A DNA stretch of 64,000 nucleotides from Pseudarthrobacter sp. Its GTDB lineage: Bacteria > Actinomycetota > Actinomycetes > Actinomycetales > Micrococcaceae. The stretch is taken from positions 62,001-126,000 of the forward strand of contig JAPSJV010000004.1 in NCBI GenBank assembly GCA_031178005.1, given 5' to 3'. Under the pieces are notes generated by a model. It saw only the letters and a program-made list of their open reading frames with translations. It was not told where the DNA came from and did not search any database. This document shows, in pieces, positions 54,257-64,000 of the stretch (position 1 is the stretch's first letter; every line of letters begins with the position of its first letter). The translations under genes were made by a program, and so were the position numbers.

Positions 54257-55573
54257 TTGAACGGTTCCAGCACCCATCAACCAAGCCCGGTCGACGGCCG
54301 GATGACGGTCCGGATCCTTGGGCGCTCGCCTTCCACGCAGTGGAATCAACGCCGTCATCCATCGGCCCCCAAACTCTTTGAACGGATCTTCATCACTAAC
54401 GACGGACCAGCCCCAGACGGAATCCCGACGCCGGCCCCCAACCGCACAGCGCCGGTGGATGATGCTGCCGTGGCGACCTGGGCCGAGGCAGGCGAGAGCC
54501 GAACCGCACGGTGGCGCTCAGCGAACGGCAGGCCCGCGCCCACACGCGTAGAAGTAGTCGACGACTCCCTCACGGCCGATGATGCGAACCGGATGGCATC
54601 CCAGGGGATCGCGATGCTCTGGCACGGTGACTTCCACAACGCGCGGCAGATCCTCAACGCCCTGGACCGGCGGATCGGTACCGGTAAGAAGCTGACCGGA
54701 ACACCGGCAGACAGGTTCTACCGGCACCGCCAGTCCCGCTCGCACCGCGCCCGCATCCTCGGCCTGCTGCTGGTTCCGCTCGATCCCGGCCCGGTGGTGC
54801 CGCTGCGCCGGGCCCCGGATATCCGGGAGGCCGCCGTCGGAGCGTACGGGGACATCAGCAAACCCTCGGTGGTTTCCCTGCATGAGCTGGTGGGGGCGAT
54901 CGGCGCCCATGAGTGGCGGCGCAACGGCGTCTATGTTGATGCCCTGCAGGACCGCATCCACCCGCACTACGGCACGTTCTTCCCCACCCGCAGCGAGTAT
55001 GTGGATCTCGTCGCCTCAGCTGCGCTGCCCTCGGAAATGTTGGCGTTCGACGTCGGAACCGGCACCGGGGTGCTCGCCGCCGTCCTCGCCCGCCGCGGCG
55101 TCCAGCGGGTGGTGGCGACGGACAACGAACCGCGTGCCATCGCCTGCGCCGCCGAGAATTTCCGGAACCTCGGTGTCCAGGACCGTGCCGAGGCCGTCCT
55201 GACGGACATGTTCCCGCCCGGGCGCGCGCCGCTCATTGTGTGCAACCCGCCCTGGATTCCGGCTACGCCGCACTCCTCCCTGGACAGCGCCGTCTACGAT
55301 CCCGGCAGCAGGATGCTGTTCCGCTTCCTCAACGAACTCCCGGACCACCTGGAGCCGGGCGGTGAGGGTTGGCTTGTCCTTTCCGACCTGGCCGAGCACC
55401 TGGGCCTGCGGTCGCGTGAGGACCTACTCAAGGCCTTCGACGCGGCCGGGCTGAAGGTGACGGACCGGCTGGACACCAAGCCGACTCATCCGAAGGCAGC
55501 GGACCGCGACGATCCGCTGTTCGAGGCACGCGCGGCCGAGGTCACGTCCCTGTGGCGGCTTGTTCCCCAGTAG
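54257..55573 (+). CDS. class I SAM-dependent methyltransferase, N5-Gln/HemK-like (true start uncertain, may be near 54560)
   Basis: MLAFDVGTGTGVLAAVLARRGVQRVVATDNEPRAIACAAENFR; catalytic motif IVCNPPWIP. Confidence 0.8.
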   Translation: MNGSSTHQPSPVDGRMTVRILGRSPSTQWNQRRHPSAPKLFERIFITNDGPAPDGIPTPAPNRTAPVDDAAVATWAEAGESRTARWRSANGRPAPTRVEVVDDSLTADDANRMASQGIAMLWHGDFHNARQILNALDRRIGTGKKLTGTPADRFYRHRQSRSHRARILGLLLVPLDPGPVVPLRRAPDIREAAVGAYGDISKPSVVSLHELVGAIGAHEWRRNGVYVDALQDRIHPHYGTFFPTRSEYVDLVASAALPSEMLAFDVGTGTGVLAAVLARRGVQRVVATDNEPRAIACAAENFRNLGVQDRAEAVLTDMFPPGRAPLIVCNPPWIPATPHSSLDSAVYDPGSRMLFRFLNELPDHLEPGGEGWLVLSDLAEHLGLRSREDLLKAFDAAGLKVTDRLDTKPTHPKAADRDDPLFEARAAEVTSLWRLVPQ

Positions 55574-56823: not shown

Positions 56824-59573
56824 CCGCCAACTGGCCTGGCGTGGACCCGGAGTGGTCGCGGGAAATCGACGTGAAGTCAACGTCCGACGCCGATCTGCCG
56901 GGGACAGTGCGCCGCTGGCACCTGCTGGACAACGGGGACCAGCTCGCCCGCCTGGGCCTGGCTCCCGCCGGAACCCTGCTGTGCGTTCACGGAAACCCCA
57001 CCTGGTCCTACCTGTGGCGGACGCTGCTGGCCGCCGGTTCGGATCCTGCCCATCCGTGGCGGGTTGTGGCGGTGGACCAGCTGGACATGGGCTATTCGGA
57101 GCGCACTGGAACCTTCCGGCGCCTGGCAGACCGCATCAACGACCTGGGTGACCTGACGGATGCGCTGGCCCTGGCCGGGCCCGTGGTGACCGTGGGCCAC
57201 GACTGGGGCGGCGCGATCAGCCTGGGCTGGGCGCTGGCGCACCCGCAGCACCTCGCCGCAGTGGTGTTGACCAACACAGCCGTCTCCCAGCCCGCAGATT
57301 CGGCCATTCCGCCGGCCCTGCGGCTGGCCCTGCATCCCGCCGTCCACGGCTGGGGAACCACCACGACGGACGCCTTCCTTCGGGTGACGCACTCGCTGGC
57401 CCACCCGGCGTTGCCCTCCGACGTCCGCGAGGCCTACCAGGCTCCGTACCGCGGGGCCTCCCGCCGCAGCGGGGTGGGAAACTTTGTCGCGGACATCCCT
57501 GTGGACGCCGCCCACCCCAGCTTTCCTGCGCTCACCGGCATGGCGGAGGGGCTGCGCGGCTTGAAGGTACCGGCGCTGATGCTCTGGGGCCCGCGGGACC
57601 CGATCTTCTCCGACCGGTACCTCAAGGACCTGATCAACCGGCTCCCGCACGCCGATGTGCACCGCTTCGAAGGCGCCGGCCACCTTGTGGCGGAGGACCG
57701 GGACATCGCCGCGCCGATTTTCCAATGGCTTGCCGGGAACGTGGGTGCCGGAATCAGTGGTGCGGGAAACTCTGCTGACGACGACGGCGGAACCGCCAGG
57801 GAGCTCGGTGCACCACCGGACGTCCAAGGGACGGGTGAAGCAGCCGCCCTCGAGTCAACGGTATTCCGCCCGCTCTGGGACGCACTTGAAAAGCAGGCGG
57901 CAGGGCTCGCGGGCGGGGATACCGCCGTCGCGGAAATGGCGCCGGACGGCACGGTGGCCCGCTCGCTCAGCTGGCAGCAGCTGGACCGGGACATCCGCAA
58001 CCTTGCGGCGGGGCTGAGGAACGCCGGCGTCGGATCCGGCAGCCGGGTGAGCCTGATGGTTCCGCCCGGCGTGGACCTGACCGTAGCCCTTTACGCCTGC
58101 CTTCGGCTCGGTGCCGTGGTGGTGGTGGCCGACGCCGGACTGGGAACCAAGGGCCTGAGCCGCGCCGTGAAAGGCGCCACCCCTGATTTCATTATCGGCA
58201 TCGACAAGGCGCTCGCGGCGGCCTCGGTGCTCGGCTGGCCCGGACGCCGGATCAGCGTGCGGGACCTCCCACCCGCCCGCCGTCGGGTACTCGGCGTCGA
58301 ACATTCCCTGGACGCCCTGGCGCGTTCCGCTGCCGGCCGCGGTGCTCTGCAGCCGGGGGACAACCTTGACCCGGATGCCCCGGCCGCCGTGCTTTTTACG
58401 TCCGGTTCCACCGGCCCCGCCAAGGGCGTGCTGTATACGCACCGGCAGCTGGCGGCGATGAGGGACACCGTAGCGGCTACCTTCGAGATCCGGCCCGGTA
58501 CCCGGCTGGTGGCAGGTTTCGCCCCGTTTGCCTTGCTGGGTCCGGCGCTCGGAACGGTGTCGGTGACGCCGGCCATGGACGTCACCGCGCCACGCACCCT
58601 GACGGCCGGTGCGCTGGCCGACGCCGCCGCAGCCGTCAACGCCACGGTGGTCTTCGCCTCGCCGGCCGCGCTGCGCAATGTCCTTGCCACCCGTGATGGG
58701 CTGAGCGCCGCCGGGCAGGAAGCGTTGGGGCGTATCGGGTTGCTGCTGTCCGCCGGTGCGCCCGTTCCCGAACCGCTCCTGGTCGAGGTGCAGCGGCTGC
58801 TGCCCAAGGCCTCGCTCCGTACCCCGTACGGGATGACCGAGGCGCTGCCCGTCACGGACATCAGCGTGGAACAGATTCAAGCCGCCGACGCCGATGCTGC
58901 CGCCGGCACTGAATCTTCCGGCACTGAACCTCCCGCCGGCAAGGCCGGAGCAGGCAACGGCGTGTGTGTGGGGTGGCCGGTGCATGGCGCCCGCGTGGCC
59001 GTGATTCCGCTGGCGGCCGACGGCACCGCACCCGGCTCGCAACCGGTGACGGAGCCCGGCGTGACGGGCGAGATCCTGGTCAGCGCCCCGCACGTCAAGG
59101 AAACGTATGACAGGCTCTGGCTGACCCAGCGGAAGAGCTCGAGCCTGCCCGGCTGGCACCGCACCGGCGACGTGGGGCACTTCGACGCCGCCGGCAGGCT
59201 CTGGGTGGAGGGACGCCTCGCCCATGTGGTCACGGCTCCGGGCGGTGTGGTGACGCCCGTCGGCGCCGAACAGGCCATCGAACGCCTGGACGGCGTCGGG
59301 CTGGCCGCGATCACCGGCGTCGGACCGGCTGGCACCCAGGCCGTGGTCGCCGTCGTCGAGACCGTTCCGCCCGCCCGGAAGGCGGGCCCCGCCACACCGC
59401 AGCTTGCCGGGAGAGTACGCCAGGCCGCCCTTGAAGCAGGCGTTCAGGTCTCCGCTGTGCTCGCAGTCCCCACCCAGCCCACGGATATCCGGCACAACGC
59501 CAAGATCGACAGGACCCGCCTGGCCCGCTGGGCTACACGGGTGCTGGCCGGCGGCAGGCCGGGCAAACCATGA
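56817..59573 (+). CDS. oleBC: OleB-OleC fusion: alpha/beta hydrolase (haloalkane dehalogenase-like) plus AMP-dependent ligase
   Basis: GHDWGGAISLGWALAHPQ then AMP-binding AVLFTSGSTGPAKGVLYTHRQ and LRTPYGMTEALPVTD; start overlaps the oleA stop (TTG 56817 or GTG 56841). Confidence 0.9.
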   Translation: MVTANWPGVDPEWSREIDVKSTSDADLPGTVRRWHLLDNGDQLARLGLAPAGTLLCVHGNPTWSYLWRTLLAAGSDPAHPWRVVAVDQLDMGYSERTGTFRRLADRINDLGDLTDALALAGPVVTVGHDWGGAISLGWALAHPQHLAAVVLTNTAVSQPADSAIPPALRLALHPAVHGWGTTTTDAFLRVTHSLAHPALPSDVREAYQAPYRGASRRSGVGNFVADIPVDAAHPSFPALTGMAEGLRGLKVPALMLWGPRDPIFSDRYLKDLINRLPHADVHRFEGAGHLVAEDRDIAAPIFQWLAGNVGAGISGAGNSADDDGGTARELGAPPDVQGTGEAAALESTVFRPLWDALEKQAAGLAGGDTAVAEMAPDGTVARSLSWQQLDRDIRNLAAGLRNAGVGSGSRVSLMVPPGVDLTVALYACLRLGAVVVVADAGLGTKGLSRAVKGATPDFIIGIDKALAAASVLGWPGRRISVRDLPPARRRVLGVEHSLDALARSAAGRGALQPGDNLDPDAPAAVLFTSGSTGPAKGVLYTHRQLAAMRDTVAATFEIRPGTRLVAGFAPFALLGPALGTVSVTPAMDVTAPRTLTAGALADAAAAVNATVVFASPAALRNVLATRDGLSAAGQEALGRIGLLLSAGAPVPEPLLVEVQRLLPKASLRTPYGMTEALPVTDISVEQIQAADADAAAGTESSGTEPPAGKAGAGNGVCVGWPVHGARVAVIPLAADGTAPGSQPVTEPGVTGEILVSAPHVKETYDRLWLTQRKSSSLPGWHRTGDVGHFDAAGRLWVEGRLAHVVTAPGGVVTPVGAEQAIERLDGVGLAAITGVGPAGTQAVVAVVETVPPARKAGPATPQLAGRVRQAALEAGVQVSAVLAVPTQPTDIRHNAKIDRTRLARWATRVLAGGRPGKP

Positions 59574-60541
59574 AGGTCCTGGTCACCGGGGCCAGCGGGC
59601 TGCTTGGGGGAGAAGTGGCCCGGCTGCTGGTGCGCCAAGGGCACGACGTGACCACCTTCCAGCGCCGTCCGTCGGGGGTCGACGGCGCCACGGATTTCCG
59701 CGGGTCCATCACGGATGAGAAAGCCCTTGCGGAAGCCGTCGACGGCGTCGAAGGCATCATCCACCTCGCCGCGAAGGTGTCCTTCACCGGGCGGGCCGCG
59801 GAGTTTGAGCAAGTGAACGTCGAGGGGACCCGTAACCTGCTTCGTTGCGCCCGCGCGGCCGGGGTGCGGGACGTGGTGTTCGTGTCCTCCCCGTCCGTGG
59901 CGAATTCCGGCGCCGCCATCTCGGGGTTGGGCGCGGAGCCGGCGGACCCGGAGCGTGCCCACGGCGACTATTCACGCACCAAGGGCGACGCCGAGCTGCT
60001 GGCCCTGGCCGCGGACGCGCCGGAGTTCCGGGTCGCGGCGGTGCGCCCGCACGTCGTCTGGGGTCCGGGCGACACCCAACTGGTGGAGCGGGTCCTGGAC
60101 CGGGCCAGCCGCGGCCGTCTGCCACTGCTCGACGCCGGGGCGGCCCTGATCGACACCACCTACGTGGACAACGCGGCCGCGGCTATCGTCGCCGCACTGC
60201 ACCGCATGGACCACATCCATGGCAGGGCCCTGGTGGTCACTAATGGCGAGCCGCGGCCGGTGGGCGAGTTGCTGGCAGGTATCTGCGCTGCGGGTGGCGT
60301 CGCCGCGCCGTCGTGGTCCGTGCCGGGTCCGGTGGCGCGGGCGGCGGGCGCAGTGGTGGAGAAGCTGTGGACTCTGGCCGGGCGCGAAGAGGAGCCGCCG
60401 ATGACCCGGTTCCTCGCCGAGCAGCTCTCCACAGCGCATTGGTTCGACCAGCGCGAGACCCGGCAACTCCTGGACTGGACCCCCGCCGTCTCCCTTGATG
60501 AGGGACTGGCCAGGCTTGCAGAGCACTACCGGTTAGGCTAA
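59570..60541 (+). CDS. oleD: NAD-dependent epimerase/dehydratase, olefin pathway reductase
   Basis: MKVLVTGASGLLGGEVARLLVRQGHDVTTFQRRPSG; overlaps the oleBC stop. Confidence 0.9.
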   Translation: MKVLVTGASGLLGGEVARLLVRQGHDVTTFQRRPSGVDGATDFRGSITDEKALAEAVDGVEGIIHLAAKVSFTGRAAEFEQVNVEGTRNLLRCARAAGVRDVVFVSSPSVANSGAAISGLGAEPADPERAHGDYSRTKGDAELLALAADAPEFRVAAVRPHVVWGPGDTQLVERVLDRASRGRLPLLDAGAALIDTTYVDNAAAAIVAALHRMDHIHGRALVVTNGEPRPVGELLAGICAAGGVAAPSWSVPGPVARAAGAVVEKLWTLAGREEEPPMTRFLAEQLSTAHWFDQRETRQLLDWTPAVSLDEGLARLAEHYRLG

Positions 60542-60543
60542 CC

Positions 60544-60687
60544 GGCCCTCAGACCTCCGGTGGTTGAGCTTGTCGAAACCCCTCGGCGCCCGGCCCTCAG
60601 ACCTCTGGTGGTTGAGCTTGTCGAAACCCCTCGGCGCCAGGCCCTCAGACCTCTGGTGGTTGAGCTTGTCGAAACCCCTCGGCGCCC
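60544..60687. repeat. 3 x 48-bp tandem repeat
   Basis: Unit ggccctcagacctctggtggttgagcttgtcgaaacccctcggcgcc(c/a), starts at 60544, 60592 and 60640. Confidence 0.95.
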
Positions 60688-60854
60688 GGCCCGTCGAACA
60701 ACGCACCGGTGCTGCTCTGCGGCACCACCACGTGGACGGCGTTGCGCTGGATGGTGAAGTCGGTGGTTGTGCTGGTGGCGATTTCGCCGTCGAGGTTTAC
60801 CGGCAGTGACTTTGCCTTCCGCGATAGTGGCACACGCCTCGGCAAGGTTGTTCG
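60678..60854 (-). pseudogene. decayed, internally deleted copy of the diacylglycerol kinase 3' region
   Basis: 60678-60808 matches 62490-62620 (128/131); 60809-60854 matches 63067-63112 (about 42/46); the intervening ~446 bp of the kinase is missing and the frame is broken. Confidence 0.88.
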
Positions 60855-61035
60855 CTTCCTGGGCCCTTGTCGATTTCTTTCCCGCGACTAATGGCAAGGA
60901 AATATCAGGGGCGCCAGCTCGATTATGCGTTCTATTGTCGGAGCTACAGTCTAGGTTTTATTTAGCAGGTGCCGAGGCCCGCATTTTGAGACCGACTCCG
61001 CGATCGGCGCCGCAAGAGGGGACAGGGAATAAAAA

Positions 61036-62382
61036 ATGGACGAAGTGCGCAAGCTTGCCTTGGAGGTAGCCCGCTGCGGCAATATCACCCATGCGCGCAA
61101 GGATGCGGCCCATCCCTGCCATGAGATTGTGTCGGTGCAGAAGCCGGATCCCGCGACGTTCCATGTCCCCGAGGCGTGGGCGGGAGCAATCGATACGGCC
61201 AGGGTTCTGTACATATCATCGAATCCGTCGATCGGTGACATTGCTGAGGGGCAGGATCCGGCAACCGAAGAGTTGTATCCGAAGGAATCCGACTCTGACG
61301 AGTTTATCCAGGACTTTATCGTTAACCGGTTTAATCCTGACTCGGGATATGCGGATCTCAACGGTTCTTACAGACAAGTCAGCGGACAGCCTTCTACCAA
61401 AAAGGTGAGCTTCTGGACAAACATGAGGAACCGAAGCATTGAACTCCTAGGTCATGATGCCCATCCAAATGAGTCCTACGCCATGACTGAAGTGGTGCAC
61501 TGCAAGTCGAAAAAGGACAGGATGGGCGTGAAAGCCGCACGATCGGCATGCTCTGACCTCTACTTGGACCGAATCATTGCACTTTCCCCTGCGCGTGTGC
61601 TGGTGGTGGTGGGAGTGCAGGCGGGGGATGCCCTTAAGACAAGGTGGGACCTTCCACAGCAGTTTGGAATCATGAAGAAGGAAGCTTCCGGTACCGCATC
61701 GATTGTTGCTTCCGAAGCGGATTCCATGGTGCTGCGCGAAATCGCCGGGCGGGAACGAACGGTCGTGTTCCTTCCCCACCCGAACAGCCAAGGAACTAGA
61801 AAGTTCTTTTCGGATAACTACCCGGAGAACATGCTGAACCTTCGCCGAGCTGCTGCCCCGGTGGCTGTAATTGGAACGGCGGCGGTCGTGGCGGCGACTG
61901 TTGCTTATGGAGAGTATTTGAGCCATGGGGCTTACGTTTGCCAGCCCAACAGGTACTTTCGTCCCAGTACCACCCACTTCGCGTTCTACTCTGACAGGCA
62001 GATTCAACCTCACGTCGCCGAAATCGAAGAAATCTTCAAAGACGTCGTGTTTACCTCGGAAGAAGCTGCGAGTTGGACAGCTTCTCAGGATAGGTCTGGG
62101 CAACGCCTAGGAGTGGTGATTGCCTCGTTCTTGGCGGCGGGGTTACGGGAGCATGGTGAACGGTACGACGTGATTTTGCTGAGTCAGGAAAACGAAGCCT
62201 CGACCCTTCAGCTGACTTCTCCCGTCATCAACGACCTCAAGAATTCCCAGGGCCGTGCCGTGGCCTTTACACAAGGTCAGCGCTATGTTGATTTGGAAGT
62301 TCTTACGGGTGGAATCAGCCTCACTTCAAAGATCGCCCGGCTCAGCGGCTGGAACGAGATGCATCCCGACGAGGATGCTTAA
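61036..62382 (+). CDS. uracil-DNA glycosylase superfamily-like N-terminal domain fused to an unknown C-terminal domain
   Basis: TARVLYISSNPSIGD; FWTNMRNRSIELLG; AMTEVVHCKSKKDRMGVKAARSACSDLYLDRIIALSPARVLVVVGVQAGDAL; VVFLPHPNSQGTRKFF; uninterrupted 448 aa. Confidence 0.6.
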   Translation: MDEVRKLALEVARCGNITHARKDAAHPCHEIVSVQKPDPATFHVPEAWAGAIDTARVLYISSNPSIGDIAEGQDPATEELYPKESDSDEFIQDFIVNRFNPDSGYADLNGSYRQVSGQPSTKKVSFWTNMRNRSIELLGHDAHPNESYAMTEVVHCKSKKDRMGVKAARSACSDLYLDRIIALSPARVLVVVGVQAGDALKTRWDLPQQFGIMKKEASGTASIVASEADSMVLREIAGRERTVVFLPHPNSQGTRKFFSDNYPENMLNLRRAAAPVAVIGTAAVVAATVAYGEYLSHGAYVCQPNRYFRPSTTHFAFYSDRQIQPHVAEIEEIFKDVVFTSEEAASWTASQDRSGQRLGVVIASFLAAGLREHGERYDVILLSQENEASTLQLTSPVINDLKNSQGRAVAFTQGQRYVDLEVLTGGISLTSKIARLSGWNEMHPDEDA

Positions 62383-62424
62383 GACGATGCCCTTGGACGG
62401 CAAAGCTCACGTCCCTGTGGCGAT

Positions 62425-62461
62425 GTTCCCTGCTGTTCGGTCAACAGCGGAACCAGGGAAC
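62425..62461. terminator. hairpin after the UDG-like gene
   Basis: gttccctg-ctgtt-cggtc-aacag-cggaac-cagggaac; perfect 8-bp outer arms; no strong T-run. Confidence 0.5.
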
Positions 62462-62471
62462 TAGCAGGCCC

Positions 62472-63437
62472 TCAAACGGGCGGCCAGTTCTCGGCGCCCG
62501 GCCCGTCGAACAACGCGCCGGTGCTGCTCTGCGGCACCACCACGTGGACGGCGTTGCGCTGGATGGTGAAGTCGGTGGCGGTGCTGGTGGCGATTTCGCC
62601 GTCGAGGTTTACCGGCAGTGGATTGTCGGTGACCAGCCGGACGCTGCGGCTGGTCAGGTGGTGCACGCGGTCGTGTTCAATGAAGCTTCCGTCCTTGAGC
62701 AGCCGGGCGATGTTCACGTGCTCGCGGAGCGGCCCGGCCAGGATCGCGTAGATGTCGAGGGTGTGGTCGTCGATCCCGGCGGTGGGGGAGACCGTGTTGC
62801 CGCCGCCGTAGTGCCGGCCGTTGCCCACGGCCACCTGCAGCAGGTCCTCGAGCTCCAGCGGCTGGTGGTCGCCGTCCGGGAACTCGAGCCGGGCCCGAAA
62901 CGGCTTGTGCTTGGCATACGCCCCAAGCGTGGCGATGCTGTAGGCCAGCGGCCCGATGTACCGCTTCAGGCGGGGGCTCAGGGCCTCGGTCACAGCGACG
63001 GACAGGCCCACGGATGCGACGTTGAGGAACGGCTCACCATTGGCCCGGCCCAGGTCGATGTCCACCACTTTGCCTTCCGCGACGGTGGCGCACGCCTCGG
63101 CAAGGTTGCTCGGGATCTCCAGCGTGCGGGCGAAGTCGTTGGCGGTTCCCAGCGGCAGGACGCCGAGCGTCACCTCCGTGCCGGCCAGGCGGCCGGCGGC
63201 GTAGGACATCGTCCCGTCGCCGCCGCCCACAACCAGCAGGTCGTGCCCGTCCGCAAACACCCGGTCAAGCGTCCCGGTGAGGTCCGCCCCGGAGTGCACG
63301 TGGTGCACGGCGGAGACAGGCACGCCTGCGTTGCGCATGGTGTCCACCGCAAGTTCGTGGGGCGCGCCGCGGCGTGAACCGGCGTTGATCACAACGGCGG
63401 CAGAGCGGGCGTTCCGGGCAGCTTTCATTTGAGCCAT
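62472..63437 (-). CDS. diacylglycerol kinase family lipid kinase (YegS-like)
   Basis: AVVINAGSRRGAPHELAVDTMRNAG...LLVVGGGDGTMSYAAGRLAGTEVTLGVLPLGTANDFARTLEIP; C-terminal PLPVNLDGEIATSTATDFTI. Confidence 0.92.
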   Translation of the reverse strand: MAQMKAARNARSAAVVINAGSRRGAPHELAVDTMRNAGVPVSAVHHVHSGADLTGTLDRVFADGHDLLVVGGGDGTMSYAAGRLAGTEVTLGVLPLGTANDFARTLEIPSNLAEACATVAEGKVVDIDLGRANGEPFLNVASVGLSVAVTEALSPRLKRYIGPLAYSIATLGAYAKHKPFRARLEFPDGDHQPLELEDLLQVAVGNGRHYGGGNTVSPTAGIDDHTLDIYAILAGPLREHVNIARLLKDGSFIEHDRVHHLTSRSVRLVTDNPLPVNLDGEIATSTATDFTIQRNAVHVVVPQSSTGALFDGPGAENWPPV

Positions 63438-63616: not shown

Positions 63617-64000
63617 CTACGTCCTGTACTGAGTCCACGCAGGAGCGTCAGGATTCAACATCTCAGCTAGTTCAAAAAATGCGTCATCGTCCGCCTCCAA
63701 GTACCCCTGGGGATCCAAGAAATAAATGGCCCGTCTGTATGCCTCGGCGAACGTCCCAAACATGGAGGAGACTGACGTGTACTCCACGAGGTGTTGGGCC
63801 TCACCCAGCATGAAGTTGGAGACCTGCCCGTAAGTGGCGGAGTTTCGAGCGCAATCCACAGCGTAAAAATCACCACCTCCGTTGGCCAGCAAAGGTAGCC
63901 AATCGGGACTCCATCTCGAGTTTTTCTTGAAGGTCCTGTAGTTGTTAAGCGTCTCGTCAAGGTTCGGAAAATGGAAGCCGGGCACGATTTGGATATCGTC
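63617..64000 (-). CDS. SMI1/KNR4 (SUKH) family protein, partial at right edge
   Basis: DDIQIVPGFHFPNLDETLNNYRTFKKNSRWSPDWLPLLANGGGDFYAVDCARNSATYGQVSNFM. Confidence 0.75.
   Translation of the reverse strand, partial: DDIQIVPGFHFPNLDETLNNYRTFKKNSRWSPDWLPLLANGGGDFYAVDCARNSATYGQVSNFMLGEAQHLVEYTSVSSMFGTFAEAYRRAIYFLDPQGYLEADDDAFFELAEMLNPDAPAWTQYRT

Follow-up and report, generated by a model that had tools for sequence, protein, structure and literature searches.

A foreign single-gene islet in Pseudarthrobacter encodes a UDG-fold domain fused to a module of suspected defence proteins, a probable anti-phage gene

Between the end of an ole cluster and a lipid kinase gene of Pseudarthrobacter sp., two copies of the kinase's own tail enclose a single gene, and the question is where this gene came from, what its product is made of and what it could do in the cell. 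In the window, that is the whole stretch of 64,000 nucleotides analysed here, the left border of the islet is an oleD-like NAD-dependent dehydrogenase gene at the end of the ole cluster (59570-60541, plus strand; an open reading frame matching Pfam Epimerase / 3Beta_HSD) and the right border is an intact diacylglycerol/YegS-type lipid kinase gene (62472-63437, minus strand; PF19279 2.3e-22, PF00781 1.4e-20). The first-pass annotation had described a 131-bp direct repeat at 60678-60808 and 62490-62620 and this holds, with 3 mismatches between the copies, the right one being the 3' end of the intact minus-strand kinase. As also described, the left copy runs straight into 46 bp (60809-60854) that match 63067-63112 with 4 mismatches, so that 446 bp of kinase (62621-63066) have been lost from it. 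The left copy is hence a decayed kinase remnant (60678-60854, minus strand) composed of 131 bp of the 3' end and 46 bp of the 5' third. Its 131-bp part is identical to the local kinase at 128 of 131 positions and shares at most 115 identical bases with the sampled relatives, while the 46-bp part matches the local kinase at 42 of 46 positions and the kinase of genome G057 at 43 of 46. Between the repeat copies there is one intact open reading frame of 448 aa (61036-62382, plus strand) and no transposase, as stated at first pass.

The repeat may have been produced by an assembly error, given an assembly of 3.09 Mb that is 69% complete and in 81 contigs; against this, the two copies differ and the left one carries an internal deletion. 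Directly after oleD, the 3 x 48-bp tandem array (60542-60692, 97% matches, GGTTTCGACAAGCTCAACCACC core) exists as first claimed but is not specific to the islet, its core being found in 47 copies in the assembly compared to 0 for the reversed control. The array has arisen by local expansion of a dispersed repeat and is therefore no marker of the islet, and its candidacy as an islet-specific recombination site was ruled out on this genome-wide dispersal. The dispersed unit is a 22-bp repeat, GGTTTCGACARGCTCAACCACC, which recurs across the assembly, 60542-60692 included, frequently as groups of 2-3 copies; a literature search did not find its exact A-form in print.

The composition of the islet was next compared with that of its borders. 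From 60855 to 62490 the GC content is 55.4% compared to about 70% in both border genes, and the tetranucleotide deviation of the islet is the highest of the 64-kb window, as none of 156 sliding windows reaches it. This bears out the foreign origin proposed for the 448-aa gene. Both halves of the gene are alike in GC by codon position (0.59/0.44/0.61-0.64), and for that reason they look co-arrived. Regarding a possible conservation and synteny of the gene across the genus, the full gene was found in 0 of 149 other sampled genus genomes, the front half alone in 5 of them and the back half alone in 1. Taken with the domains described below, the islet is probably a single-gene insert acquired horizontally, whose product would be an anti-phage protein joining a glycosylase of the Brig kind to a C-terminal module shared with at least two further kinds of suspected defence protein, Abi_2/HEPN-type RNases and a PD-(D/E)XK-like nuclease. 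No relatives of the gene were found in viral contigs or phages, and carriage by a mobile element or phage was rejected on that absence.

The front half of the protein (residues 1-277; 61036-61866, plus strand) was delimited as a glycosylase domain by alignment, predicted model, fold match and residue spacing. The 448-aa protein has no Pfam match and no PADLOC model. On TIGR00758 (UDG_fam4) it scores 15.1 bits for a cut-off of 125.3, outside family 4, and it stays below the PF03167 UDG cut-off, which its aligned homologues at L114, L123 and L125 exceed. A profile of 14 N-domain sequences searched against the PDB retrieves the family-4 UDG 4zbx/4zby of Sulfolobus tokodaii (E 4e-4). Furthermore, residues 1-270 of the predicted model mostly exceed a pLDDT of 90, the closest fold is that of 4zby (probability 1.00), and each of the top 33 PDB fold matches (E up to 0.001) is a uracil-DNA glycosylase. 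Judged by this predicted alpha/beta fold, residues 1-277 belong to the UDG superfamily. Compared with 4ZBY, the core fold and the central motif region are the same, whereas identity in the fold alignment is about 14% and the window protein's motif 1, SNPS, is unlike that of family 4.

The domain carries motif 1 SSNPSI (61-66), F126-W127, E152 and motif 2 HPNS (248-251), and N63, W127, E152 and H248 are invariant among the 14 aligned relatives. W127 and E152 are 25 residues apart, in the spacing [FY]W-(25)-E, and the F that replaces Y at 126 is a conservative substitution, frequent in the glycosylase family. The fifth residue after the motif-1 Asn is D68 here and D, E, A, V, R or F across relatives, a variation that would fit different target bases among them.

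The likeness to the known base-excision defence proteins Brig1 and Brig3 was judged by fold, residue spacing and gene neighbourhood. Brig1 is an alpha-glucosyl-hmC DNA glycosylase, a single-domain protein of 261 aa, with 4ZBY as best structural match and Y121A/E147A as double active-site mutant (PMC11078745). The window protein likewise has a UDG-superfamily domain of about 260 residues with 4ZBY as best fold match, and its F126-W127/E152 reproduce the spacing of Y121-W122/E147; the residues sought by analogy with the Brig active site (F126, W127, E152 and the motif-1 N63) are all in place. It differs from Brig1 by an extra module of 160 residues and by the F in place of Y121. A preprint on Brig3 has equated Brig1 Q81-W122-147 with Brig3 E55-W100-127, and Brig3 E55, five residues after its motif-1 Asn N50, recognises the hydroxymethyl group (PMC13160076). 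With the Brig3/BapA pair, a 5hmC glycosylase and a glucosyl hydrolase (PMC13160076), the window protein shares the motif-1 Asn (N63 here, N50 there) and the pair of W and acidic catalytic residue, and D68 stands at the +5 place of Brig3 E55. In contrast, Brig3 has a single domain and its ASCH-type helper BapA is a protein of its own, while here an extra module is fused.

Stand-alone homologues of residues 1-277 are encoded in five genus genomes at 33-39% identity, and the glycosylase family was found in 3 of about 394 other genomes of the class. A scan over 85,462 species started from an alignment; performed with two short patterns and hence non-exhaustive, it retrieved 15 loci, L114, L123 and L125 included, from Cellulomonas, Promicromonospora, Phycicoccus, Arthrobacter, Dietzia, Athalassotoga and uncharacterised MAGs. 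The single-protein scan of genome contigs gave no match, and the combined two-domain alignment offered no usable conserved stretch for a genome-wide scan.

The published neighbours of Brig1 and of a functional homologue are ADP-ribosylglycohydrolase and SIR2, and these recur beside the stand-alone relatives, which, as for Brig1, are mostly from Actinobacteria. Indeed, an ADP-ribosylglycohydrolase-like reading frame lies near the glycosylase gene in L055-L057, a SIR2_2-type protein in L055 and L056 (Pfam-tested in L055), and a NERD-domain helicase overlaps or abuts the glycosylase gene in L055-L057 (Pfam-tested in L056). A NERD helicase also follows the glycosylase-family gene in L113, where a second reading frame with a UDG-like motif, ATVGINPSDAEF, and no Pfam match is seen near both (L113:11644-12849). 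In L116 and L118, an Exo_endo_phos (AP-endonuclease-like) gene starts 3-4 bp downstream of the glycosylase gene; such an enzyme is of a kind that could cut abasic sites, and L116:7926-9541 and L118:7983-9515 may each represent a two-gene base-excision defence operon. In Athalassotoga saccharophila (L125:4389-15791) and in L124, a cas operon stands directly downstream of the glycosylase-family gene; Cas7 was confirmed in that of L125, in which a DarT gene is found upstream of the glycosylase gene. This wider family, spread over actinobacteria, Athalassotoga and uncharacterised MAGs, offers together with its operon partners, the AP-endonuclease-like gene included, a set of ready candidates.

The back half of the protein is a C-terminal module (residues 283-440; 61882-62355, plus strand) found both in Abi_2 proteins and in a PD-(D/E)XK-like protein. 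Within the genus and the family it aligns with the C-terminal region of Abi_2-type proteins at 26-38% identity, and on Rhodococcus plasmids it is carried by Abi_2-type proteins, one of them annotated as an Abi family protein. Several of these Abi_2 matches are under the Pfam cut-off and one Rhodococcus protein is above it (27.9 vs 25.6 bits), and one module-bearing Abi_2-type protein is matched by PADLOC to PD-T4-5. The AbiD-AbiF-type HEPN proteins of the Abi_2 group, PD-T4-5 among them, differ from the window protein by their HEPN-type front half and their lack of a glycosylase; Pfam finds no HEPN-type Abi_2 domain in the window protein, so that the C-terminal module alone is common to both. 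The closest match found, at about 44% identity, lies at the C-terminal end of a protein of 330 residues from other actinobacteria. The front half of that protein shows a D...E-x-K motif, the PD-(D/E)XK-like call being made from this motif alone; this partner has no match in the PDB or Pfam. The Halanaeroarchaeum and actinobacterial forms of the PD-(D/E)XK-like protein have the module in common with the window protein, but their front half is unrelated to the glycosylase. The Halanaeroarchaeum form was observed amid BREX-5 genes on plasmid pHSR2-01 (L129:4428-5423).

The module corresponds to no named family in the profile libraries searched, its best match to PDB sequences has an E of 0.024, which is not meaningful, and its model, computed from a single sequence, displays a pLDDT of 32. 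It is on 0 of roughly 20 other glycosylase relatives; therefore the fusion of a UDG domain with this module is unique within what was searched. Its distribution suggests that bacteria shuffle the module among unlike weapons suspected to act against viruses. Tentatively, and a little short of an even chance in our estimate, the module would be a general component of prokaryotic immunity that has escaped recognition, a domain for sensing infection or for targeting, plugged onto weapons as chemically unlike as RNase-type Abi_2 proteins, a PD-(D/E)XK-like nuclease and, here, a base-excising glycosylase. The 448-aa gene would then be, with the same reserve, a natural swap experiment that exposes the module. 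Phage defence by base excision was reported in 2024 for single-domain proteins; the fusion would carry it into multidomain systems and points to an unnamed defence module that Abi_2 proteins and a nuclease-like protein next to BREX genes also bear.

Observed here are the domains and their fold, the conservation of the putative catalytic residues, the foreign base composition, the fusion itself and the genes next to the relatives; the steps that we infer concern the catalysis, the base attacked, the defence role and the part played by the C-terminal module. By analogy with the Brig proteins, the UDG-fold domain most likely acts on invading phage DNA by base flipping; a modified or non-standard base would be turned out and then cut off, leaving abasic sites, and these would block the replication of the phage DNA. 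The module of about 160 residues most likely senses the infection, docks the protein on its target or restrains the enzyme.

Other explanations of the gene were weighed against this reading. An abortive-infection protein, in which the module senses the phage and the glycosylase hits host DNA or RNA so that the cell dies, would agree with a module common to Abi_2 proteins, one of them PD-T4-5-like by PADLOC, and PD-T4-5 works by abortive infection (PMC9519451); one sensor for three unlike attack domains would fit as well. However, Brig1 and Brig3 target phage DNA via a modified base, and the stand-alone glycosylase relatives do without the module, and we regard suicide as unlikely. The UDG-superfamily fold and motifs are equally those expected of an accessory repair glycosylase that removes uracil or a deaminated base, arrived on imported DNA, with its C-terminal part as a DNA- or partner-binding tail, and Brig1 and Brig3 themselves keep a residual uracil activity (PMC13160076). 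What makes repair a rather improbable role is the sparse and scattered occurrence of the family (in 5 of 149 further genomes of the genus and 3 of about 394 further ones of the class), together with the defence genes beside it and a module typical of Abi_2 proteins and PD-(D/E)XK-like ones. In addition, the residue at the place of the Brig3 contact with the modified group varies in relatives, as with changing substrates.

The islet could also be read as a decayed intermediate of a kinase duplication, in which the gene is a dying passenger devoid of function. Decay is evident in the left kinase copy, and duplicates or remnants of the kinase are seen repeatedly among relatives. Against this, the 448-aa frame is open throughout, its two halves share one kind of coding-type composition, and none of the putative catalytic residues is lost, which leaves this explanation highly improbable. 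The probable anti-phage glycosylase remains the reading that we prefer.

The site was then examined in relatives, since the first-pass annotation had envisaged a hot spot between oleD and the kinase exchanging cargo, especially defence genes. A close kinase is present in 80 of 150 genus genomes and a close oleD in 83 of 150, and the two lie near each other in 3 of about 80 kinase-bearing relatives: on the 3' side of the kinase at 3.6 kb in G122 and 10.4 kb in G126, and head-to-head in G125, an orientation unlike that of the window. With the same border pair in so few genomes, a genus-wide hot spot is not supported, and the idea that oleD and the kinase natively belong together was rejected as well. 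Over 44 distinct contexts, the first 1.4 kb on the 3' side of the kinase falls into 20 neighbour clusters, the largest of 10, and the first 1.4 kb on the 5' side into 16, the largest of 24. Where defence cargo had been expected, the corresponding place in relatives carries genes that, judging from their translations by eye, seem for the most part to be metabolic or regulatory. The commonest neighbour is a methyltransferase placed tail-to-tail with a gap of about 35 bp; it is intact beside the kinase in 8 of 45 distinct contexts, nearby in 2 further ones and reduced to a 3' fragment in 3 others. In the window, the ole cluster separates this SAM-dependent methyltransferase-like gene (54257-55573, plus strand) from the kinase.

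Moreover, kinase duplicates recur among relatives: G019 displays a tandem kinase-methyltransferase-kinase-methyltransferase arrangement (L046), G101 two full kinase copies 13 kb apart (L048), and G097 (L100) and G095 (L047) a partial second copy. Given the variable flanks and the recurrent duplicates, the ancestral tandem duplication proposed for the islet is plausible; the second kinase copy may have arisen ahead of the gene's arrival or have been brought along with the gene by a foreign donor. The surroundings of the kinase are a plastic region in which duplications leave remnants, and not a dedicated cargo slot between oleD and the kinase.

Just past the end of the window, at about 6 kb from the kinase, the genome carries a defence island that differs from the Brig1 neighbourhood (L066:3687-16812; about 129.7-142.8 kb of contig G000:C40). 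It comprises genes for an HNH effector-like protein, a C5 DNA methyltransferase, a sacsin-like ATPase, a second GHKL-type ATPase, a DUF4420 PD-(D/E)XK protein and a Z1-domain protein. This proximity supports, without proving, a defence role of the islet gene. A second low-GC insertion (63456-64339) separates the kinase from its 5' neighbour and carries a SUKH-1 (SMI1/KNR4) gene (63617-63985, minus strand; PF09346 1.1e-5; GC 54%); in G013, the kinase has as its immediate neighbour the gene found here from about 64339 onwards.
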